Below, in pieces: positions 4,743 through 20,196 of a stretch of 33,462 bases of DNA. The translations under genes and the position numbers were made by a program. Below the pieces are notes generated by a model, which did no database searches, was not told the origin of the DNA, and saw only the letters and a list, made by a program, of their open reading frames with translations. Position 1 is the first letter of the stretch, and every line of letters begins with the position of its first letter. Source of the DNA: Acidobacteriota bacterium. Its GTDB lineage: Bacteria; Acidobacteriota; Vicinamibacteria; Fen-336. The stretch covers positions 37,799 through 71,260 of the forward strand of contig QHVM01000024.1 of NCBI GenBank assembly GCA_003223555.1. Direction: 5' to 3'.

Positions 4743-5627
4743 TTGCGGGAGAAGCTCGCCGGCAGCGGCATCGAGATCGGGGAGGTCGATCCCGCGCGAC
4801 CGCTCGAGGAGCAGGTGGCGAACGCCTCCGCCCTCATCCCCTCCATGGCGCGCATCAGCGCCTCGGTGATCGCCGCCGCGCCGCTACTGAAGCTCATCGC
4901 GCAGTTCGGCGCCGGCCTCGACGGCGTCGACCAGGCGGCGGCCGCGGCCCGCGGCATCCCGGTGCGCAACGTGCCCGGGGCCAACGCCCAGTCGGTGGCG
5001 GAGCTGGCGCTGTTCCTGATGCTGGCCCTGGCCCGCCGCCTGCCTCTTCACCGGCGGACGTTCGAGAGACGGCTCGTCGGCGACCCGCCGGGGACCGAGC
5101 TGATGGGAAAGACCCTCGGGATCGTCGGCCTGGGAGCCACGGGCCGCGCCCTGGCCCGCATCGCGCGCGCCACCGGCATGGAGGTGATCGCGGTGCGGCG
5201 CCACCCCGGCGCCGACGCCGACGCCGACGCGTCGTGGGTCGGCGGACCCGCGGACCTCGACGCGCTGCTCGCGCGATCCGCCTACGTGAGCCTGCACGTG
5301 CCGACGTCGTCGGAGACGCTGCGCATGATCGACGCGGCGCGCCTGGCGCGGATGAAGCCGACCGCGTTCCTCATCAACGTGGGGCGCGGTGACCTGGTGG
5401 ACCGGGCGGCGCTGCTCGACGCCCTGCGGTCGCGGCGGATCGCGGGGGCAGGCCTCGACGTCTACTGGGAGGAGCCGCCCGATCCGCGCGACGAGATCTT
5501 CTCCCTCGACAACGTCGTGGCGACACCGCACCTGGGCGGCACGACCTTCGAGTCCCTCGACCGCATCGCCACCCGCCTGGCCGCGCTGCTCAAGGAGTAC
5601 CTCCGCCCGGATCTGCCGCGAGCTTGA
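4743..5627 (+). CDS. D-isomer specific 2-hydroxyacid dehydrogenase, N-terminus in doubt
   Basis: 294 residues from TTG 4743. It has a Rossmann NAD-binding motif GLGATG (129-134) and the catalytic triad of the family: Arg215 (INVGRGDLVD), Glu244 (YWEEPPDP) and His263 (TPHLGG). Family members reduce 2-keto acids or oxidise D-2-hydroxyacids (phosphoglycerate, glyoxylate and related substrates); the substrate is not clear here. The frame stays open upstream to 4629 and reads APEVLFCYRGFPPSRVALRE from about 4692, which looks like the true beginning of the substrate-binding domain. No ATG, GTG or TTG exists in that stretch, and TTG 4743 has no ribosome binding site. A few bases carrying the start may be missing after the ferredoxin stop. 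The 3' end overlaps the opposite-strand gene by 38 bases. Confidence 0.88.
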   Translation: MREKLAGSGIEIGEVDPARPLEEQVANASALIPSMARISASVIAAAPLLKLIAQFGAGLDGVDQAAAAARGIPVRNVPGANAQSVAELALFLMLALARRLPLHRRTFERRLVGDPPGTELMGKTLGIVGLGATGRALARIARATGMEVIAVRRHPGADADADASWVGGPADLDALLARSAYVSLHVPTSSETLRMIDAARLARMKPTAFLINVGRGDLVDRAALLDALRSRRIAGAGLDVYWEEPPDPRDEIFSLDNVVATPHLGGTTFESLDRIATRLAALLKEYLRPDLPRA

Positions 5628-8600
5628 TGTCGGCCGCCGCCGTGCCGCCTTCCGCCACCGTCACGGTCGTGCGCCCTCCGAGCCGGTCCTTGCGGGCCCG
5701 CAGCGACATCGTGCCCGCCGGGACGGTCAGCTCGCCGTTTCCCTGGACGTCGGTCCTCGTCTGGAGCATCAGCTCCTCCACCAGGACGGAAGCCTGTGCG
5801 ACCGGCTGGCCGTCGGGTCCGAGGACGCGGATGGTCAACCGGCCTCCCGGTCGAAGGGTGAGCACCAGCTCCTTGTCGCCGGGGACGACCCCCGTGCGGA
5901 AGGCGAAGGCGCCGATCTCGCTGCGGGCGAAGACCCGGTGGGGCACCGGCCGCAGGCCGCCCATCTGGAAGCTGCCGTCGGGCAGCGTCATCGCGCCGCC
6001 GCCGCTGCGATCGGGACCTGACTCGAGCGACATCGCGCGGACCTGCAGGCCGCCGACGCCGCGCCCGCCCACGTCGACGACCTTGCCCGAAAGCGTGAGG
6101 CCGCGACCAAGGACGAGACGGACGTCGCTACCGGGACTGCTTCCGACGCTGACTTCCGTCACGGCGGGTCCGTAGTTCTCCGCGGCCGCGTGCACCGTGT
6201 AGTCGCCGGGCTCCACCTCGAGGCGGAAACGGCCGTCCTCGCCGGCGTTACCGCTCGAGCCTCCCGTCGAGCCTGACCCCGGCTTCTTCGGGTTGGCGAA
6301 GACGTGGGCGCGAGGCACCGGCTGCTCGGTCTCGTGATCGACGACGACGCCCGTGATCGTGGCGCCGGCGAAGGCCAGGTCCAGGGTATACGCGTCGGCG
6401 TCGGGCACTTCGACGGTGCGGGTGGGGTAGCTGGTGCGGCCGTCGACGCTCTCCACTTGCACGGACGCGCGGCCGGGCTGGTCGACGATCATCTCGTAGC
6501 CGCCGTCCTCGCCGCTGACCGCCGTCATCCGCTGGGGGCCGGCGGGCGGGGGCGAGACCTCGTCCGGCGGGCCGACGCCCATCATCATCGTGTAGCTCCC
6601 GTGAAGCGTGATGCGCACTCCGGGCAGCGGGGCCCCCGCCCGCGTCGCCCGGCCGGAGACGAGGATGTCGCGCGAGCGCAGCTCGACCGGCGTCATCTCG
6701 CCCTCGCGGACGTCCACCTCGGTGCCCTGCGCGTTGATGTAGGCCGATCCCGACCGCGTCATCAGGGTCACCGTGACCCGGCCGGCTGGGACGTGCTCGG
6801 CCACGAAGCCGCCGCCGGCGTTCGTCACCAGCATCCCGGGTCCCGACATCATCGACCGGCCCGGAGCCTGGCTGACGATGTTCACGTAGGCGCCGCCGAT
6901 CGGGCTGCCGTCGCGCCGCCTCACCGAGCCTTCGAGGCGGCCTCCTTGCGTCAGCACGATCCGCGCCTCGGCCGCGCCCTTGGCGGCGTCCACGTCGATC
7001 CCGCTCACGCGTCCCTCGGCATAGTTCGGGTGGGAAGCCCAGACCTCCACCGTTCCTGGCGCGACGCCGGCCACCTCGAAGGCGCCCGAGGGATCGGTGG
7101 CACCTTGCGGTCCCATGCCCGGGCCGCTGAAGTCACGGCCCGCCCCGCGAACGCCTATCGTCGCACCGGGCACCGGGGTGCCCGCCGTGTCGGTGACCGT
7201 GCCGCGGATCGTGCCACCGGCGGAGAGGCGGATCGTCCCGACGTCCGTCGTCGACCCCGCGGTGACCTTCACGTCGGAGACGTTGCCCGTCGACCGGCCG
7301 GCCGCCGCGGCGTCGACGACATAGCGGCCTTCACCCATGTCCTCGAGCAGGAACCGGCCGTCGGCGCTGGTGACCATCCGTGAGCGCGGGAGGGTGACGA
7401 CGGGCCCGGCCGACATCGGCTCCCTCCGCGCCGGGCTGGCCGACACGCGGAACGTCTCGATGGGCCGGCCCGCGTCGTCCACGACGACCCCCGCGATGCC
7501 GCCGGCGGGGGAGAGCACGAGGTCGACCTTGTCGGCGCCTGCGTCCACCGGCCGATACATCCCCGCGTAGCCCGGAGCGCTCGCGTTCACGCGGTAGGAG
7601 CCCGCCTCGACGCCGGCGAGGACGAAGCTCCCATCGGCCTCGGAGATGGCCTGTCGGATCTCGGGCACCATCCCGCGCAGATGGCGGCGCCCGCGCGGTC
7701 GTGGACGCGTCCCTGGATCGTCAGGCCCGTCTCGAGCTCGACGTCGCCGACGTCCACGGCCCGGCCGCTGGGTGCGACCTGGGCCTCGACGCGCTTCGGC
7801 GCGTAGCCGGGGGCGGTGACGGCCAGGACGTGGGAGCCCGCCGGAACCGCCTCCATCCGGAAGCGTCCGTCCGCGCCCGCCTCGGCGCGCAGCAGGTCGC
7901 GGAGCGGCCGCGGAGCGGGCTGGCCGTCGATCTCCTGCACGGAGACGCGTCCCGCCACCGCCCGCGGCTCCGGCCCCGCGACGAGCCGCCCGGTGACCGT
8001 CCCACCCTTGTCGAGGATGACGTCGGCCTGCGCATCGCCGCCTCGCTCGACGTCCACGCCGACGGCGAGACCGGGAGCGAAGTCCTTGTGGCGGGCCACG
8101 ACCCGGTAGCGGCCGGGGTCGACGCCGGCGATCTCGTAGCGCCCCTGGGCATCGCTCACCGCCGGCCGCGGCGAGATCGCCCAGCGGGGAGCCTCGGGTT
8201 CGGCCCTGACGACGGCTCCGGCGACCGGAGCGTTGCCGGGTCCCCAGACGGTGCCGGTGAGCGTGGATCCCGGAAAGAGGTAGATGTCGGCCGGCCGGCC
8301 GGGCAGCGCCCCCGTCTTGCGGCCGCTTTCGTAGCTCCTGGTCCGGGCCCAGACGGTCTGCGGCCCGCTGCCGAGCGCTTCCAGACGGAAACGGCCCTTG
8401 CCGTCGGTCAGCGCCTGCGCGAGGCCGGCCGTCGCGTCCCAGGGCAGGCTGAGCGCCGACTCCTCGCGGGCCTCGACCTGGGCCAGCGCCACGGGCTGGC
8501 CCGTGACGCCGTCGCGCACAGTTCCCTCCAGTACTCCGCCGCGGGAGAGGACGACCTCCAGCGGCGCGCCCGGGCGCGCCTTCTCGACCGTGCGGCCGGC

Positions 8601-8900
8601 GAGCCCGCGCGCCTCGACGCGCACCGTGTGGGGCGCGGTCCGCCTCACCCCGAGGCGGAACCGCCCGCCCGCGTCGGTGTTCGTGCTGAGCGGCGGCTCG
8701 GCGAAGTCGACCACGGAGCGGACGATGACGAGCGCGCCCTCGATGGGCTTGCCGTCCGGTCCCTTGACGACACCTTCGAGAGCGGGCGAAGGCGTGGGCG
8801 CGGGGGCGGGCCGGGGAGCCGGCCGAGCGGCAGCCGTCTGGAAGGCGACGAGCGGGAGCGCTGCGAGGAGAAGGAGAGCGGCTACGCAGAGCCTCTTCAT
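5590..8900 (-). CDS. Secreted modular carboxypeptidase-regulatory-like protein (paralog B), frameshifted
   Basis: The gene starts at ATG 8900 with GGGAGG six bases upstream. It encodes a signal peptide (MKRLCVAALLLLAALPLVAF), a Pro/Ala linker and 12 tandem beta-sandwich modules of about 80-95 residues (pattern GxVxDxxGxPVxGAxV, then DGxFxLxGLxPGxYxVxAxAPGYA), the carboxypeptidase-regulatory/transthyretin-like fold. The frame breaks in module 5 near 7670-7695. Codons run in one frame to HDRAGA, and homology to the upstream paralog resumes in another frame at about RHLRGMVPEI. Compared with the intact copy about 10 residues are missing, a net loss near 28 nt. The C-terminal half ends at TGA 5590-5592 (GGTAAADIKLAADPGGGTP). 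Such proteins are exported and probably surface or matrix components. Its ATG overlaps the stop of the upstream paralog (ATGA), so translation is coupled. Confidence 0.85.
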
Positions 8901-11900
8901 GGAGTCCCTCCCGCCGGAGCGGGTCCGAGCTTGATGTCGACCGCCGCCGTCCCCCCTTCACCGACGGTCACGGTCGCCCGGCCTTCGAGCTTGTCCTTGC
9001 TGGCGCGGATCTCGGTCGTCCCGGCGGGCAGCGCCAGCTCGGCCAGCCCTTCCGCGTCGGTCTTCACGAATACCCCGATGTCCTCGACCATCGCGCTCGC
9101 GCCGGTCACGGGCAGGCCCTCGAGCCCGAGTACGCGGACCGCCGCGCGGCCGCCCGGCCGCAGGGTCAGGACGACGTCCTTGTCGCCCGGGCTGACGCTG
9201 CTCCGCGTGGCAAAGGCTCCCAGCTCGGAGCGGGCGACGATGCGGTAGGACGCCTGCCGCAGGCCGCCGATCCGGAAGGTCCCGTCGGGGAGCGTCTGCG
9301 CGTAGCCGACACCTCGCGGCGCTCCCCGCTCGGTTGCGGAGGCGATCACCTCCAGGCCGCCGAGGGTGTGGCCCGCGAGGTCGACGACCTTGCCGGCGAG
9401 GACGAGGCCCCGGGAGAGGGACAGCTTGAGATCGGCGCCGCCATCGGTGCCGATCGTGGTCTCGATCTCGGCCGGGCTATAGTCCTCCGCCGAGGCCTCG
9501 ATGCGATAGTCGCCGGGCTCCAGCTCGAGCTGGAAGCGGCCGTCCTCGCCCGCCTGGCCGCCCCCTCCTGCCGGCGCGCCGGGATCGGGCTTCTTGCGCG
9601 CGGCATACACGCGGGCGCGGGGGATCGGCTGCTCCGTCTCCTTGTCCACGATGATCCCGCTGACCGGCGCCACGTCGTAGGAGAGGTCAAGCGCGTAGGC
9701 GTCGGCATCCGGCACGTCCACGCTCCGCATCGGATAGCTCACGCGCCCGTCGGCGCTCTCTACGACGACCCTCACCCGGCCGGGCTCGTCCACGAGCAGC
9801 TCGTAGCCGCCCTCCTCACCGGTGACCGCCGCCATCCGCTGCGGACCCGTCGGCGCAGCCGTGACCTCCTCGTCGGTCCTGCCGAAGGACATGTACAACG
9901 CCCGGTCCCCGCGGAAAGTGACGCGAGCGCCGGCTATAGGGGTCCCCGAGCGGGTCACCCGGCCGGAGACGAGGATCTCGCGCGACCGGAACTCCACCCG
10001 TGCGGACTCCCCGTCGCGCAGGTCCACGTCTCTCGACTGCGCGCCGATGAACCGCGATCCCGCGCGTGTCATGAGGTTGACGGTGGCCCGGCCGGGAGGA
10101 AGGTGCTCGACGACGAAGGTGCCGTCGGCGCCCGTCGTCACGAGGCCCGGTCCCTCGGAAGAGAAGATCATGCCTCCTCCCGAGCGCTGCGGCGTCACCC
10201 GCACGTAGGCCCCGGCGATGGGCGTTCCATCGCGCCGTCCGACCCAGCCGTCGATGCGTCCCCCTTGCCGGAGGACGATGCGAGCTTCCGCGACGCCCTT
10301 GGCCGGATCCACCTCGATCCCGCCGACCCGTCCCTCGGCATAGCTCGGATGGGACGCGGACACTTCCACCGCCCCCGGCAGGACGCCCTTCACCTCGAAA
10401 GCGCCGGTGGGATCGCTCACCGTCCGCGCCCCGCCGCCGAAGTCGAAGTCCATTCCCGGCCCGTGGACCCGGACGGTGGCGCCCGGCACGGGCGCGCCCG
10501 CTCCGTCCACGACCGTTCCGCGGATCGTGCCGCCCGCGGCGAGACGGATCGTCCCCACGTCGGTCGTCGAGCCGGCCGCCACCTTCACCCCCGAGACGTG
10601 CCCTCTCGCCCGCTCGGGCGCGTTCGCTTCGACAACGTAGGTGCCTTCGGCAAGGTCCTCGAGGAGGAAACGGCCATCGGAGGCGTTGACCTCGCGGTAG
10701 CCGGGGCTGCGGATGACGAGGCCTTCGTTCGCCTCCGCTTCGGCGGGCTGGGCACTGACGTTGAACAGCTCCACGGGCCGGCCCCCGTCGTCGACGACGG
10801 TCCCGGCGATGCTGCCGGCCGGCGATAGGACCAGCTCGACCTTCTCGGCTCCTGCCTCGGACTGTCGCATGATGCCGGCATAGCCCGGAGCGCTCGCGCT
10901 CAGCCGCTGCGGCCCGGGCTCGAGCCCGGCCAGCACGAACGTGCCGTCGGCCTCGGCAGAGACGCGCACGCTGCGGTCGGGCATGCGGCGGGCCGGCCAC
11001 GCGACGACCGTCGCACCCCCCACGGGCAGCCCCGCGCGGTCGCGCACGCGGCCGTGGATCGTGAGTCCCGTCTCCAGCTCGACGTCGCCGAGGATCACCT
11101 CGCGCGCGCTCGGTGCGACGTGCACCTCGACGCGCTTCGAGGCGTAACCGGGGGCGATCACGGCCAGGGCGTGGGACCCGGCGGGGACCGCTTCCAGGCG
11201 GAAGTGTCCGTCACTCCCGGCCTCGGCGCGAAGCAGGTCGCGAAGCGCTTCGGGCGCGCGCTGGCCGTCGATCTCCTGCACGGAGACGCGGCCGGCCACG
11301 GCCTGCGACTCCGGTCCCGTGACGAGCCGTCCCACGACGGCGGCTCCCTTGTCGAGCACGACGTCGACCTGCATGTCCCCTCCGCGCTCGACCGAGACGG
11401 TCGGGACGATGGCCGGCGCGAAGTCCTTGTGGCGGGCGGTGACGCGGTAGCTTCCCGGGTCGAGGCCGGCGATCTCGTAGCGGCCCTCGGCATCGGTCAC
11501 CACGGGGCGGAGTGATCCCCTGAAACGGGGAGTGTCGGAGTCCGCACGGACGATCGTCCCCGGGACCGGAACGTTGCCGGGCCCCCACACCGTGCCGCCC
11601 AGGATCGTGCCCGGGAAGAGGTAGATCTCGGCCGGACGGCCCGGCACGGCGCCCGACTGGCCGCCCGCCCCGTAGCCGCGGGCCCGCGCCCTCACGGTCT
11701 GGAGGCCGCTCGTCAGGCCTTCGAGGCGGAAATGCCCCTTGGCGTCGGTGCTCGTCTCCACCACGCCGGCTGCCGGCTCCCACAGCAGTGGGATCGCCGT
11801 CTCGTCGCTCGCTTCCACGCGGGCCTGCGGCACCGGCTGGCCGGTGGTGCCGTCGCGGACCGTGCCTTCGAGCGCCACGCCCCGCGTCAGGCCGACTTCG

Positions 11901-12247
11901 ATGGGGGCACCTGGCCGTGCTTTCTCGATCGTGCGGCCGGCCAGACCGCGCGCTTCGACTCGCAGCGTGTGAGGCACCGGCCTCGCGAGCGTCAGGCGGA
12001 AGCGGCCGGCCGCGTCGGTCCGGGCGCTGAGGGTCGGTGCGGGCGATGCGAGGCCGGGCGGCCGGGCAAATACGAGCGCGCCTTCGAGGGGCTTGCCGTC
12101 CGGTCCCTTGACGACACCTTCGAGCGCGGGCGGCGGCGTTGGGGCCGGGGTGGGCCTGGGAGAAGGGCGGGCGGCGGGCGCCTGGAAGGCAAGCAGCGGG
12201 AGCGACGCGAGCAGAAACGAGAAGAAAGCCGGGCAGAGCTTCTTCAT
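8897..12247 (-). CDS. Secreted modular carboxypeptidase-regulatory-like protein (paralog A), intact
   Basis: 1116 residues from ATG 12247, with GGGGAGG six bases before it. A signal peptide (ends near LLAFQAPAA) is followed by a Pro-rich linker (PRPTPAPTPPPALEG) and 12 tandem modules. Their first strands read LEGVVKGPDG, LEGTVRDGTTG, LGGTVWGPGN, VVGRLVTGPE, IHGRVRDRAG, IAGTVVDDGG, IRGTVVDGAG, IDGWVGRRDG, VSGRVTRSGT, VSGIIVDKET, LAGKVVDLAG and AAVRVLGLEG. Each is a predicted seven-strand carboxypeptidase-regulatory-like sandwich. There are no membrane segments after the signal and no catalytic motif, which suggests a structural, adhesive or binding protein. It lies downstream of recA on the same strand and is coupled by ATGA to its paralog. 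The two copies align module for module, so they arose by whole-gene duplication. Confidence 0.88.
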   Translation of the reverse strand: MKKLCPAFFSFLLASLPLLAFQAPAARPSPRPTPAPTPPPALEGVVKGPDGKPLEGALVFARPPGLASPAPTLSARTDAAGRFRLTLARPVPHTLRVEARGLAGRTIEKARPGAPIEVGLTRGVALEGTVRDGTTGQPVPQARVEASDETAIPLLWEPAAGVVETSTDAKGHFRLEGLTSGLQTVRARARGYGAGGQSGAVPGRPAEIYLFPGTILGGTVWGPGNVPVPGTIVRADSDTPRFRGSLRPVVTDAEGRYEIAGLDPGSYRVTARHKDFAPAIVPTVSVERGGDMQVDVVLDKGAAVVGRLVTGPESQAVAGRVSVQEIDGQRAPEALRDLLRAEAGSDGHFRLEAVPAGSHALAVIAPGYASKRVEVHVAPSAREVILGDVELETGLTIHGRVRDRAGLPVGGATVVAWPARRMPDRSVRVSAEADGTFVLAGLEPGPQRLSASAPGYAGIMRQSEAGAEKVELVLSPAGSIAGTVVDDGGRPVELFNVSAQPAEAEANEGLVIRSPGYREVNASDGRFLLEDLAEGTYVVEANAPERARGHVSGVKVAAGSTTDVGTIRLAAGGTIRGTVVDGAGAPVPGATVRVHGPGMDFDFGGGARTVSDPTGAFEVKGVLPGAVEVSASHPSYAEGRVGGIEVDPAKGVAEARIVLRQGGRIDGWVGRRDGTPIAGAYVRVTPQRSGGGMIFSSEGPGLVTTGADGTFVVEHLPPGRATVNLMTRAGSRFIGAQSRDVDLRDGESARVEFRSREILVSGRVTRSGTPIAGARVTFRGDRALYMSFGRTDEEVTAAPTGPQRMAAVTGEEGGYELLVDEPGRVRVVVESADGRVSYPMRSVDVPDADAYALDLSYDVAPVSGIIVDKETEQPIPRARVYAARKKPDPGAPAGGGGQAGEDGRFQLELEPGDYRIEASAEDYSPAEIETTIGTDGGADLKLSLSRGLVLAGKVVDLAGHTLGGLEVIASATERGAPRGVGYAQTLPDGTFRIGGLRQASYRIVARSELGAFATRSSVSPGDKDVVLTLRPGGRAAVRVLGLEGLPVTGASAMVEDIGVFVKTDAEGLAELALPAGTTEIRASKDKLEGRATVTVGEGGTAAVDIKLGPAPAGGTP

Positions 12248-12326: not shown

Positions 12327-13363
12327 TCAGGCCTTCTTCTTCTCCGGCATCGGCAGCACGTCGGCCTTTTCCTGCTTGGCCTCCACGCCCCGGCTCACCT
12401 CGGGCAGGCCCATGCCCTTGCGAAGGCGCGAGTCGATCTCGGCGCGGATGTCGTGGTTCTCCTTCAGGAACTGGCGGGCGTTCTCGCGGCCCTGGCCCAT
12501 CCGCTCGCCGTCGAAGGTGTACCACGCCCCCGACTTCTCGATGACCTTGTGGTCGACGCCGAGGTCGAGCAGGTCGCCTTCCTTGCTGATGCCTTCGCCG
12601 TAGAGCACGTCGAACTCCGCCTCGCGGAACGGGGGAGCGACCTTGTTCTTCACCACCTTGACCTTGGCCCGGCTGCCGATGACGACGTCGCCTTCCTTGA
12701 GCGAGGCGATGCGGCGGATGTCGAGGCGGATCGAGGCGTAGAACTTCAGGGCCCGGCCGCCGGTGGTCGTCTCCGGGTTGCCGAACATGACGCCGATCTT
12801 CTCGCGGAGCTGGTTGATGAAGACCAGGCAGGTCTTGCTCTTGGCCACGATCGAGGTCAGCTTGCGCAGGGCCTGGCTCATGAGGCGGGCCTGCAGGCCC
12901 ATCTGCGCGTCGCCCATCTCGCCCTCCAGCTCCGAGCGGGGGACGAGCGCGGCCACCGAGTCCACCACCAGCACGTCGACCGCGCCCGATCGGATCAGGA
13001 CCTCGGCGATCTCCAGGGCCTGCTCGCCGCTGTCGGGCTGGGAGACGAGCAGGTTGTCGATGTCGACCCCCAGCTTGCCCGCGTAGGTGGCGTCGAGCGC
13101 GTGCTCGGCGTCGATGAAGGCGGCCATGCCGCCCCGGCGCTGGGCCTCGGCGATGACGTGGAGGGCGAGGGTGGTCTTGCCCGAGGACTCCGGGCCGAAG
13201 ATCTCCACCACCCGTCCAGGGAGAGGGATCCCGTGGGGATGGCGGGCACGTCCACCTTCTCGCGGCTCCCCAGGCGCATGATCGAGCCCTTGCCGAACTG
13301 CTTGTCGATCTGCGCCAGGGCGGCCTCGATCGCCCGGGCCCGCTCGTTACGCTCTTCAGCCAT
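12327..13363 (-). CDS. recA: RecA recombinase, frameshifted by a 34-nt loss
   Basis: RecA catalyses ATP-dependent strand exchange and LexA cleavage. The start is ATG 13363 ([20 protein letters not shown]) with AAGGAGAG five bases upstream. Residues 1-50 end at TGSLSLD. The protein then continues in a different frame from GTG 13211 with [15 protein letters not shown], containing Walker A GPESSGKT. Between them only two bases (13212-13213) stand where the family has 12 codons (the IALGVGGIPRGR-like segment), so 34 nt are missing and the frame is broken. The remainder is intact: Walker [16 protein letters not shown]-like [17 protein letters not shown]2 region [18 protein letters not shown], and C-terminal domain ending PMPEKKKA. 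Because recA is normally essential for repair and single-copy, I judge this most likely a sequence or assembly error. The upstream region shows TATCCT at 13386-13391 but no obvious LexA box. Confidence 0.95.
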
Positions 13364-13504: not shown

Positions 13505-15469
13505 ATGTTCCTTCTCACCACGGTCCTCGCCGCCTCGAGCCTGGCCGTGCCGTTCGTGGCGCAGCAGAAGGACACCTGCGGCGCGGCCGCCCTGGCCATG
13601 GTCATGCGCTACTGGAACGAGGACGTGTCCCACGACGACCTGGCCCGATCGCTCGTCGAGCCCGAGCTGCACGGCGTGGCCGGCTCCCGGCTGGCCGAGT
13701 TCGCGCGCGGGCGCGGCCTGGAGGCGATCGCCTACCGAGGCGACATGGCCAACCTGCGCGACTACGTCGGCAAGGGACGGCCCCTCATCGTGGCCTGGGA
13801 CGCCGGCCGGGGGCGCTACCACGACGTCGTGGTCGTGGGGCTCGACGACGAGCGCGGCGCTGTCCTCGTCCATGACCCGGCGGTGGGGGCCTCGCGGCCG
13901 ATTCGGGCGGCCGCGTTCGAGAAGCGCTGGGCCGGCGCCGGCTATTGGACGCTGCTGGTCACCCGCGCGGCGGGGGCGGCGCCGCCCTCCCGTTATGACG
14001 AGCTGATGTCCCTCGGGATGGCGGCCGGCCGCAGCGGCCGTTACGCGGAAGCGGCCAAGTACCTCCAGCGGGCGATCGCGCTCGCTCCGTCGCGCTCCGA
14101 GGCGAGGGTGGAGCTGGCCGGCGTGCGCTTCCTGCAGCGGAAGTACGAGGCGGCGGCGGCGGGTTTCGCATCGTCCCTGTTCTACCAGCCGGACTCCTAC
14201 GCGCGGGAGATGCTCGCCGCCTCGCTCCATCTCGCCGGCCATACCGAGGACGCCCTCAAGGAATGGAACCGGCTCGGCCAGCCCCGCCTCGAACGGGTCC
14301 AGTTGAACGGCCTGCGCCACACCCGCGACCGTGTCGTGCGGCACGAGCTGAAGCTGGCCGAGGAAGGAGTGATGGACCTGGGGGACTACCGGCAGACGCG
14401 GCTGCGGCTGGAAGAGCTGGGCATCTTCGACCGCATCGTGCTGCGGCCGGAGCTCAAGGGCGAGGGCCGGGTCGATCTCGAGGTCGACCTCGCCGAGCGC
14501 CATGGCTTCGGGGACCTGCGCCAAGTGGGGGCGAGCAGCGCGGTCTACGCGCTACGCAAGAAGATCGTCCTGCGCTACTTCAACCTCGCCGGCGAAGCGG
14601 TCAACCTGGGCGTCGACTACAAGTGGCAGAAGACCCAGCCGCACCTCCGGGGCAGCATCGAATGGCCGCGCCCTTTCGGCATCCCGGCCAACCTCCACCT
14701 CGAGGCGCTCCGGGCGCGCCCCTCGTACGACCTCGGGGAGGCCTTCCGGCTGAGCACGCGAGGAGTGGACCTGAGCCTGCGGCGGGTCGTCGGCCCCGGC
14801 AGCGTGGCGGAGGTGGGCTGGCGAGTGAGGGATCGGACCTTCAGCCTGGCCCGCCCCGACGCTCCGGACGGCGTCATCTCGGGATACCAGCTCGGGCTCG
14901 ACCATCGGCTGGTGGACCGGCGCCGCCATCGCCTCGATACGGCCTTGCGCTTCTTCCAAGCCGCACGCCCCCTCGGCTCCCAGCTCTCGTATCCCCTCGG
15001 CCAGGCGAGACTGCGCTACCACGGGTACATCGCGCTGCCGGACGGCAAGCCCATCACCCGCTCGATGCTCACGGCGCAGCTCATGCTTGGCCGGGGTGGC
15101 CACGGCACGCCGCTCGACGAGATGTTCGCGCCCGGCGCCGCCTCCGAGATGGACTATCCACTCCGCGGTCATTATCAAAAGCACGACGGCATCCTTGGCC
15201 GGACGCCCATCGGGCAAGGTCTGGACCTGCTGAACGTGGAGCTGCGCCAGCGTGTCGTGGACGGTCACCTCTTCCAGCTCGGCGCCGTGGCCTTCTACGA
15301 CGGTGCCCATCTGGATCTCACGGCGCAGGGTGGATCACGGACCTTGCACGATGTCGGCGTGGGACTTCGCCTTGCCACTCGGGGCATGGTGCTTCGCCTC
15401 GATTACGGCCAGAGCTTGTCCGGCGACGGGAAAAATGCCTGGACCGCAGGCATGGGTCAGGTCTTCTAA
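13505..15469 (+). CDS. C39-family peptidase / TPR / POTRA / Omp85-type barrel fusion
   Basis: 654 residues in one uninterrupted frame. Residues 1-19 are hydrophobic ([14 protein letters not shown]) and would act as an export signal, although a basic N-region is missing. Residues about 20-155 form a C39-type papain-fold peptidase: Cys25 ([14 protein letters not shown]), His106 ([12 protein letters not shown]) and Asp124 (VLVHDPAVG). About 163-275 are TPR-like helices ([37 protein letters not shown]). About 278-352 resemble a POTRA domain ([18 protein letters not shown], then [14 protein letters not shown]). The rest is a beta-barrel with alternating strands and a terminal Phe (MGQVF), as in Omp85 proteins. 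The peptidase and TPRs should face the periplasm. C39-TPR proteins are known; the covalent join to an Omp85-like barrel is unusual. It is divergent from recA. Confidence 0.82.
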
Positions 15470-17271: not shown

Positions 17272-20196
17272 ATGTGTCGACACCGCCTGCCCTGGGCGCC
17301 GCTGATCGCCGCCATGCTGATGGCAGCCGCCCTTCCGGCGGCCGCCCAGCAGGGCGCGGCCGAGATCCGCGGCCGCGTGTTGGACGCCCAGGAACGACTG
17401 CTGCCCAGGACCGCGGTCGTGCTCCGGAACCAGGACACGGGCATGTTCCGCCAAGCCGTCTCCACCGCGGACGGCACCTACTTCCTGAGCGAGGTGACGC
17501 CCGGCCTCTATGAGCTCGCCGCCGAGCTGGCGGGGTTCAAGAGGTACGCGCGCCGGGGCGTGCGGCTGGAGGTCGGCAAGACCGCCACCGTGGACATTCG
17601 TCTGGAGATGGGTGGCCTCGACGAGCAACTCACGGTCATCGCGGAGTCGCCGATCGTGGACGTCACATCCAAGGAGGTGGGCGGCAACATCGCCAGCGGC
17701 GAGCTGACGGATCTGCCCAGCATCAACCGCAGCTTCATCGGCTTCGTCGGCCTCTTGCCGGGCGTGGTTCCGATCACCAACACCGGTTCATTCGGCGCGG
17801 ACTCCGTCGTGGCCAACGGACAGGACTACCGAAACAACAACTTCATGCTCGACGGCGGCAACGATAATGACGACGTGGCCGGACAGTGGGCCGGGCCCCA
17901 GGCTCGCATGCCGCTCGAGGCGATCCAGGAATTCCAGGTCCTGACCAGCCAGTTCGATGCGGAGTTCTCGCGCACCACCGGCGCGGTCGTCAACGCCGTT
18001 ACCAAGCAAGGGACCAACGCCTTCCACGGGAGCGCCTTCGCCTTCCTGCAGGACGCATCCCTGACCCGGAAGGACTTCTTCGCGAAGCAGGACAAGCTGC
18101 CCAAGCCCGATACCACCTTCCAGCAGTATGGGTTCACCCTGGGCGGACCGGTCGTGAAGGACAAGGCCCACTTCTTCGCCAGCGTGGAGCGCCTGATCAT
18201 CGACGACGCGCGCACAATCAACATCCCGGCGCGGCCCGACCTCGACGCCACGCCCACCACCCGGAACCGGGTCTGGAACACGCTCGTCCGATTCGACCAC
18301 CAGATCGGCGCTGGCCATACCTGGAACGTGCGCTGGCTGCGGGAGCATGCGCTGCAGTTCAATCAGCTCGGAGCCGCCCGCACCCTGGCCGCGGCGGGCG
18401 AGGAGGACGACCTGGACCAGACGGTCGTGGCCGCCTTCAACTCCTCGCTGGGCAACACCCGGTTCAACACCCTGCGGCTGGCCTTCACCCAGGAGGACCT
18501 GGTCATGGCCAACCCGGGCTTCATCGCGAATGGTCACCGTCAGGACCTGCTGCCACCCACCCTGCGCTACCTCACCTACGTGGACCAGCAGAGTCCGGGG
18601 GCCCAGATGCGCGTCGACGATGCCTATCAGGCTGAGGACACCTTCGCCTGGTTCGTGCCGGGGAAGAGAGGCGACCACAACGTCCGGCTCGGCGTGCAAT
18701 ACCAGTACGTAGCAGCCGACGTCGCGGTCCACGGCAACCTGAACGGGACGTTCGTCTTCCGCACGGACGGCCCATTCGACGCCGCCGATCCGCGCACCTA
18801 CCCCGAGCGCCTCAACATCCGCGTGCCCGGGCCAAGCGACCTCTCCCTGAGCACTCACTACCTCGGGGCCTTCGTCCAGGACAAGTGGAAGGTGGACCGC
18901 CGGCTGACCCTGAGCCTGGGTCTGCGGTACGACCTGGAGGTGATCCCGTTGCGCGAGGAGGACAACCCGCGCTTCCCGGATCCGGCGCACTACCCGGTCG
19001 ACGGCAACAACCTGGCGCCGCGCGTGGGCTTCGCCTTCGACCCGCGGGGCGACGGCCGAATGGTCGTCCGCGGCGGCTACGGCCGCTTCTTCGACAAGAC
19101 GCACCTCGACATCATCTCGGCCGCCGTCACGACCGGAGTCTTCTCGGACTCGTTCGTGGCGAACTTTCCTGCCAATGCCGCCGACCCGGGGCCTTCCCGG
19201 GGCGAACTGCCCTCGGATCCGCTGCTTCACAACGGGCCCCTGCTGGACCGCACATTGCTGACGCAGCTCTTCCCGTCCGGCTCGCGCGTGCGCAACACGG
19301 GCGACGTCGTCCTGGACAACCCCGATCGCCGGAGCCCCTACGCCGACCAGCTCTCGCTCGGCTTCGAGCGGGCGATCGGTCCCCGTCTCTCCGTGAGCGC
19401 GGATTACGTCCATGCCTTCGGCCGCGACCAGTTGATGACCCGCGACCTCAATCCGGGCGTGCGCGTGGACACCAGCCGGACCGGGCGCATCGTCCGCCGT
19501 GACCCCGACTTCGTCTCCTCCGTGCTCACCCGCGTCAACGCCGGCCGCACGGAGTACGACGCCCTCCAGCTCGAGGTCGAGCGCCGCCGGGCCGGCCGCC
19601 ACCGCTTCCGCGTGTCCTATACCCTGGCCCGCTCGCGGGGGAACACGGGCGGAGTCAGCGTCCCGGCCGTGCCCACGAGTCCCTTCCAGTACCTGGATGA
19701 CATGCGGCTCGAAGCCAACGAGGGACCCACCGACACCGACCTGCGGCACAACCTGGTGCTCAGCGGCTCGGCCGTGGTGCCCAGGACCGGCGGGCTGACG
19801 ATAGGGGCGGTGGTGCGCGCCCTCTCGGGCCGGCCCTTCACCGTCCTGGACACGAGTGTCGACGCCGACCGTAACGGCATGCTGTTCGACCCGCTGCCCC
19901 CCGGCACGTACTCGGGCACCGGTCCCAACGCCTTCACCGTCGAGAACGAGGGCGGGCGCAACGGCGCGCGCGGTCCGGGCTTCTTCCAGGCCGACGTGCG
20001 CCTCGGCTACCGGTTCCGGTTCGGCGAGCGGCGGCTCGAAGTGTTCGGCGAGGTGTTCAACCTCACCGACAAGGCCAACTTCTTCCTGGCCGCCACCAAC
20101 GGTGACCGCCGCTCCACCGACTTCCTCACCTACACCGCGCTACGCGCCGGCGCCGTGCCGCGGACGGGCCAGTTCGGCATGAGGTTCACGTTTTGA
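17272..20196 (+). CDS. Oar-like TonB-dependent receptor with carboxypeptidase-regulatory domain
   Basis: 974 residues, intact. A signal peptide (APLIAAMLMAAALPAAAQ) is followed by one carboxypeptidase-regulatory-like domain (about 28-115: AEIRGRVLDAQERLLPRTAV, then DGTYFLSEVTPGLYELAAE). The plug comes next, with DLPSINRSFIGFVGLLPGVV and NNNFMLDGGNDND. The barrel region ends in TGQFGMRFTF with a terminal Phe. This is the Oar-type architecture common in Acidobacteriota, where receptors import or sense glycans and other large substrates using TonB energy; the ligand is unknown. Start ATG 17272 lies 54 bases after the small upstream gene, with only a weak ribosome binding site. It converges with the PD40 gene, leaving 22 bases between the stops. 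Confidence 0.92.
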   Translation: MCRHRLPWAPLIAAMLMAAALPAAAQQGAAEIRGRVLDAQERLLPRTAVVLRNQDTGMFRQAVSTADGTYFLSEVTPGLYELAAELAGFKRYARRGVRLEVGKTATVDIRLEMGGLDEQLTVIAESPIVDVTSKEVGGNIASGELTDLPSINRSFIGFVGLLPGVVPITNTGSFGADSVVANGQDYRNNNFMLDGGNDNDDVAGQWAGPQARMPLEAIQEFQVLTSQFDAEFSRTTGAVVNAVTKQGTNAFHGSAFAFLQDASLTRKDFFAKQDKLPKPDTTFQQYGFTLGGPVVKDKAHFFASVERLIIDDARTINIPARPDLDATPTTRNRVWNTLVRFDHQIGAGHTWNVRWLREHALQFNQLGAARTLAAAGEEDDLDQTVVAAFNSSLGNTRFNTLRLAFTQEDLVMANPGFIANGHRQDLLPPTLRYLTYVDQQSPGAQMRVDDAYQAEDTFAWFVPGKRGDHNVRLGVQYQYVAADVAVHGNLNGTFVFRTDGPFDAADPRTYPERLNIRVPGPSDLSLSTHYLGAFVQDKWKVDRRLTLSLGLRYDLEVIPLREEDNPRFPDPAHYPVDGNNLAPRVGFAFDPRGDGRMVVRGGYGRFFDKTHLDIISAAVTTGVFSDSFVANFPANAADPGPSRGELPSDPLLHNGPLLDRTLLTQLFPSGSRVRNTGDVVLDNPDRRSPYADQLSLGFERAIGPRLSVSADYVHAFGRDQLMTRDLNPGVRVDTSRTGRIVRRDPDFVSSVLTRVNAGRTEYDALQLEVERRRAGRHRFRVSYTLARSRGNTGGVSVPAVPTSPFQYLDDMRLEANEGPTDTDLRHNLVLSGSAVVPRTGGLTIGAVVRALSGRPFTVLDTSVDADRNGMLFDPLPPGTYSGTGPNAFTVENEGGRNGARGPGFFQADVRLGYRFRFGERRLEVFGEVFNLTDKANFFLAATNGDRRSTDFLTYTALRAGAVPRTGQFGMRFTF

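Follow-up and report, generated by a model that had tools for sequence, protein, structure and literature searches.

The window, a stretch of 33,462 nucleotides from an acidobacterial contig, carries on its plus strand an open reading frame (13505-15469) that starts with ATG and encodes 654 amino acids plus a stop codon, the last residue being Phe654. Pfam and NCBIfam searches identified a C39-TPR-POTRA-Omp85 fusion gene, a layout that was repeated in a congeneric locus (L001) and in 21 other loci. A putative signal peptide (about residues 1-14; 13505-13546) was recognised from the sequence and from the position of the signal peptides of homologues. It is followed by a C39 peptidase domain (residues 15-154; 13547-13966), a TPR region (about residues 161-256; 13985-14272), a single POTRA domain (residues 260-331; 14282-14497) and a predicted Omp85-type barrel (residues 336-654; 14510-15466) with about 16 putative strands and a C-terminal Phe. 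The signal peptide is short and weak and has no basic residue, and the exact start of the reading frame is therefore less certain than the rest.

The Pfam match to Peptidase_C39 (PF03412) covered residues 19-144 (E 4.5e-14; 52.9 bits against a cut-off of 22), and the TPR matches (TPR_19 and TPR_16) spanned residues 167-250. The POTRA domain (PF07244), which precedes the barrel, scored 26.8 bits against a cut-off of 21.3. These matches bore out the original prediction that C39, TPR and POTRA domains were joined in one frame.

The divergent neighbour of the fusion gene is recA (12327-13363, minus strand), which is missing a run of about 12 codons present in relatives and shifts frame at that point, near position 13211. 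No other full recA match turned up in the genome, and the frame break reflects either a mistake in assembly or a genuine lesion. The regions at 5590-12247 (minus strand) and 17272-20196 (plus strand) encode two neighbouring CarboxypepD_reg-repeat proteins (1123 and 1116 amino acids) and a barrel protein that resembles a TonB receptor and has a single domain of this kind.

Peptidase_C39 was found by Pfam at E<=0.001 in 20 of the 22 family members. The top NCBIfam model for the fusion protein was the equivalog NF033920, the PA2778-family C39-TPR peptidase, which matched residues 14-252 with 85.4 bits, below its cut-off of 150. Judged by this score, the fusion protein is a relative of the PA2778 family and not a member of it; the same model was the best match for the C39 domain in 21 of 21 family members. 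When 22 fused homologues and 17 homologues split over two genes were aligned, the residues that had been named at the outset as the catalytic triad, C25 (codon 13577-13579), H106 (13820-13822) and D124 (13874-13876), were invariant or nearly so, as was the oxyanion residue Q20 (13562-13564). The congeneric protein has Asn at position 124, a residue that papain-like enzymes also use at that catalytic position. The AlphaFold models (mean pLDDT of 37 for the fusion protein alone and 34 for two sequences, with L001 included) were too poor to use, and the triad geometry and barrel closure stand as predictions from sequence.

The C-terminal part was assigned mainly by profile comparison. The fusion protein itself gave no Pfam match to PF01103, a model that three homologues matched directly, and on its own it matched the NCBIfam Omp85_fam model over residues 563-654 with E 1.2e-6, below the cut-off. 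A family profile of the POTRA and barrel regions, built from 25 sequences, significantly matched BamA structures, including the BamA POTRA, as did the full-length profile. Alignment of the POTRA and barrel profile with Omp85 proteins of the same genome by hhalign gave a probability of 95.8 and E 7.6e-9 over 330 columns. By a crude count of periodicity, 15 amphipathic stretches follow residue 335, which with the C-terminal one makes about 16. The sequence LRGH (residues 553-556; 15161-15172) aligned with BamA as the counterpart of the Omp85 L6 motif, (V/I)RG(F/Y), and comes after the 11th amphipathic stretch, which is the place of L6 in BamA. Across the family the motif reads LRGH or LRAH, with His at the aromatic position; L553 and Arg554 are invariant, as are Glu579 and Asp599 downstream. 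The profile alignments support an Omp85-type outer-membrane barrel, as in the original prediction; its closure we infer.

The genomes sampled were all acidobacterial and comprised 149 relatives and 396 drawn from the phylum; family matches were found in 42 and 45 of these, respectively. The database comparison that had been proposed for the architecture was positive. The same in-frame fusion was present in the congener (L001 in genome G001; 74% identity), the contig of which begins at residue 53, and 21 more distant loci, outside the source genus, were also fused in one frame. The architecture is not, however, a lone oddity, since homologues occur both fused and as two genes. In four members of the source's own family (L058-L061) the C39 domain stands alone in a protein that carries a signal peptide of its own, and a second gene, for a signal peptide, TPR, POTRA and barrel, has its start overlapping (NTGA) the stop codon of the first. 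An identical two-gene arrangement was found in 14 loci from other acidobacterial groups. The TPR region is thus retained on the barrel protein in the split form, and each of the two proteins has its own signal peptide. The corresponding junction in the fusion gene, where split relatives have the stop codon, the overlapping start and the second signal peptide, lies at 13964-13993.

In a maximum-likelihood tree the source protein was nested within the split family (supports of 99/96, 100/98 and 100/99), and the fused state required two changes, a result that was the same across bootstrap trees. The tree therefore indicates that fusion, or fusion plus fission, occurred at least twice. Repeated fusion is a usual sign of two proteins that work together. 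The architecture was absent from the viral contigs searched, and in the plasmids searched the matches were confined to TPR and to C39 of the ABC-transporter type, with no PA2779-like protein.

The sole further gene conserved around 35 loci encodes a PA2779-like partner, which matches PA2779_fam (NF033919), or DUF6627. The partner protein is about 125-135 amino acids long and consists of a signal peptide, a helical middle, an [A/G]G motif and a hydrophobic tail. Its gene lies directly upstream of nearly all of the C39-Omp85 loci and downstream in three. The NF033919 cut-off of 40 bits was exceeded by three of five partners tested, and the copy in the source genome scored 36.4 bits (E 1.8e-8), just below it. 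The partner gene was linked at 33 of the 39 C39-Omp85 loci, among them every one of the 21 fused loci beyond the source genus; the remaining six genomes carry an unlinked copy. In the source genome the partner gene is unlinked and lies near polA (G000:C107:10704-11084), and its product reads ...DPVAG followed by LDHDIKLLLEIFLIVAIVLIVIKAVD.

Among the 149 relatives, the partner was present in 41 of the 42 genomes with the protease compared to 8 of the 107 without it (Fisher 2e-27, not corrected for ancestry). The presence and absence of the two also matched within single genera, for example g21. Partner and protease distances were correlated (Mantel r of 0.89, and 0.76 in the fused group alone), but common descent by itself could produce such a correlation, and little weight was given to it.

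The G before the partner tail was invariant in two alignments and was found in 45 of 45 partners when the motif was located by pattern, the preceding residue being G or A. The split and f1 forms have AG and not the canonical GG. Hydrophobic residues recur at -4, -8, -11, -15 and -18 from [A/G]G, and this hydrophobic helix face recalls the double-glycine leaders that are read by C39 enzymes. C39 peptidases are expected to cut behind a motif of the GG, GA or AG type, for which the [A/G]G of the partner is a candidate. The check proposed for double-glycine or similar substrates co-conserved with the protease was thus positive and points to the PA2779-family protein with its [A/G]G and tail.

Several known systems resemble this one in part. 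PA2778 and PA2779 (NF033920 and NF033919) likewise combine a C39 peptidase and TPR with an adjacent small Sec-exported protein that has a C-terminal hydrophobic tail; however, the PA2778 model covers C39-TPR only (255 positions), whereas here a POTRA domain and an Omp85 barrel come next, either on the one chain or from the adjacent gene. The nearest working precedent is FapD and the nearest architectural precedent PlpD. FapD is a periplasmic, Sec-exported C39 peptidase on which secretion by way of the barrel FapF depends in the Pseudomonas Fap amyloid system; its target was unknown in that study, and the periplasmic C39 class was then without a proven target (PMC5557850). Like the system proposed here, FapD and FapF pair a periplasmic C39 peptidase and an outer-membrane barrel with a dedicated client, but they are separate proteins, and FapF, a trimer whose barrel has 12 strands and a coiled coil, is not an Omp85 protein. 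The fusion protein scored 20.6 bits against the FapD family model NF058616 (cut-off 330) and so is not a member, which makes the likeness to FapD a functional comparison.

PlpD, like the fusion protein, has an enzyme, one POTRA domain and an Omp85 barrel on one chain (patatin-POTRA-Omp85), and its enzyme domain remains in the periplasm (PMC11116518). It differs in that its enzyme is a lipase-like patatin and not C39, it has no TPR and no linked client is known. No patatin match was found in the fusion protein by Pfam, and because its N-terminal domain is C39 it does not belong to the PlpD/type Vd family. BepA also combines a peptidase with TPR and acts at an Omp85 protein, BamA (PMC8423444), but it is a Zn-metallopeptidase (M48) that is not covalently attached and acts on LptD. 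In the GlyGly-CTERM/rhombosortase systems (PMC3237569, PMC6219818) a glycine motif before a C-terminal hydrophobic segment serves as a processing signal, as is suggested for the candidate client here. The protease in those systems is a rhomboid intramembrane enzyme and the tail has a basic C-terminal cluster; here the enzyme is C39 and a genome usually encodes one or two clients.

In the literature searched, no paper on a C39-Omp85 fusion was found, and no role or function for PA2778 or PA2779. In their main text Heinz and Lithgow describe ten Omp85 subfamilies, none of which includes the fusion (PMC4104836). None of the modules is new by itself, and NCBIfam already lists the PA2778 and PA2779 families; it is the C39-Omp85 combination that was not found described. 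The PA2778-PA2779 pair of protease and partner has no known role, and its coupling to an Omp85 barrel, in both fused and split forms, points to where the pair acts. A peptidase is also added to the few enzymes that form part of Omp85 proteins, and the system offers a testable candidate client with a predicted cut site. For most Omp85 members studied, the task is the assembly or transport of outer-membrane and secreted proteins.

The explanation that we favour, with about half of our confidence behind it, is that a periplasmic C39 maturation protease is tethered through TPR and POTRA to an Omp85 barrel and cuts a dedicated PA2779-family client, which would make it a protease-client pair of the PA2778/PA2779 type. 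The PA2779-family (DUF6627) protein, with its helical periplasmic part, invariant [A/G]G and hydrophobic C-terminal tail, would be exported by Sec and held by TPR and POTRA at the periplasmic mouth of the barrel. The C39 domain would cut after [A/G]G and so part the helical section from the tail, and one of the cleavage products might then be passed, inserted or displayed by the barrel. What the sequences show is that the domains are fused, that the catalytic residues are conserved, that the barrel is related to Omp85, that a two-gene form exists and that the client is linked and co-occurs; from this we infer cleavage of the client, its site and the role of the barrel. In favour of this explanation are the best match of C39 to the PA2778 family beside a linked gene of the paired PA2779 family, the repeated fusion and the FapD precedent. 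The periplasmic location of the protease, as originally predicted, is supported by the signal peptide on the split C39 protein and by the TPR region that stays with the barrel protein. The idea that the protease cleaves clients of a translocon calls for correction: the client is likely not a generic substrate but a dedicated small PA2779-family protein, the gene for which adjoins the protease gene in nearly all relatives. Since the C39 domain would be at the outer membrane and the client tail is expected in the inner membrane, the client must span the periplasm or its tail must be pulled out. This counts against the favoured explanation, as do the unlinked partner gene in the source genome, the AG of the split and f1 forms, the PA2778 match below cut-off and the fact that neither the co-occurrence nor the distance correlation is corrected for common ancestry.

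Secretion in the manner of FapD and FapF is possible, if on balance unlikely. The Omp85 barrel would then be a true export channel, and the cut PA2779 product, be it the helical section or the tail rich in V, I and T, would be released or polymerised outside. The FapD precedent (PMC5557850) and a weak match of the FapD model to 5 of 21 members are consistent with this proposal, as is the fact that exported peptides are the normal targets matured by C39 enzymes. V, I and T account for roughly half of the 24 C-terminal residues of the partner, but the tail also resembles an ordinary transmembrane helix. Moreover, no second secreted gene was linked in the neighbourhoods of 35 loci, Omp85 proteins mostly function in assembly or insertion, and the PlpD enzyme is not secreted (PMC11116518). 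Doubtful as well is a minimal maturation-and-export system in which one polypeptide would cut the [A/G]G-tailed client and pass the product through its own barrel, having been assembled at least twice from the two-gene form.

We regard as rather improbable a role in quality control, in which the peptidase and TPR, at their own or another Omp85 barrel, would trim or remove misassembled outer-membrane proteins, with PA2779 as a regulator or adaptor. POTRA plus barrel is the layout of an assembly factor, and BepA is a peptidase-TPR protein that acts at BamA on LptD (PMC8423444). However, C39 enzymes are site-specific and not general proteases, and a small partner with a candidate cut site accompanies the system almost without exception.

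Display of the N-terminal C39-TPR region at the cell surface as a type Vd-like passenger of the barrel would fit the order of parts, which is that of PlpD (enzyme, POTRA, barrel), but it is very improbable and was rejected: in split relatives C39 is a free protein with a signal peptide of its own and the TPR is found on the barrel protein, both of which speak against a passenger at the surface, and the PlpD enzyme domain was shown to be periplasmic (PMC11116518). An assembly or sequencing artefact that joined two adjacent genes, as might be suspected from the two overlapping genes of near relatives and the frameshifted recA in the same contig, is scarcely credible and was rejected, since it is contradicted by the independent fused sequences (L001 and the 21 other loci) and since the second signal peptide is missing too, not just the stop codon.

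A few other loci stood out in the survey. The only genome with a C39-TPR match and without a PA2779-like gene was G089 (contig C13, locus L028); the open frame there is short (397 amino acids), the match ends near residue 340, and the barrel is perhaps absent or encoded in another frame. PA2779-like genes were present in two close copies at L081, L087 and L116. Stand-alone C39 proteins of about 350-376 amino acids, with neither a barrel nor a PA2779-like gene, were found at L094-L097, and a different small hydrophobic protein was encoded just upstream at L094, L096 and L097 and also at L095. At L091 (G394) a C39 gene had no Omp85 partner in reach, and the short protein encoded before it ends ...VVGGALSTQTLTYIVIALAAAVLVLIFK, which makes it another candidate client with GG plus a tail.
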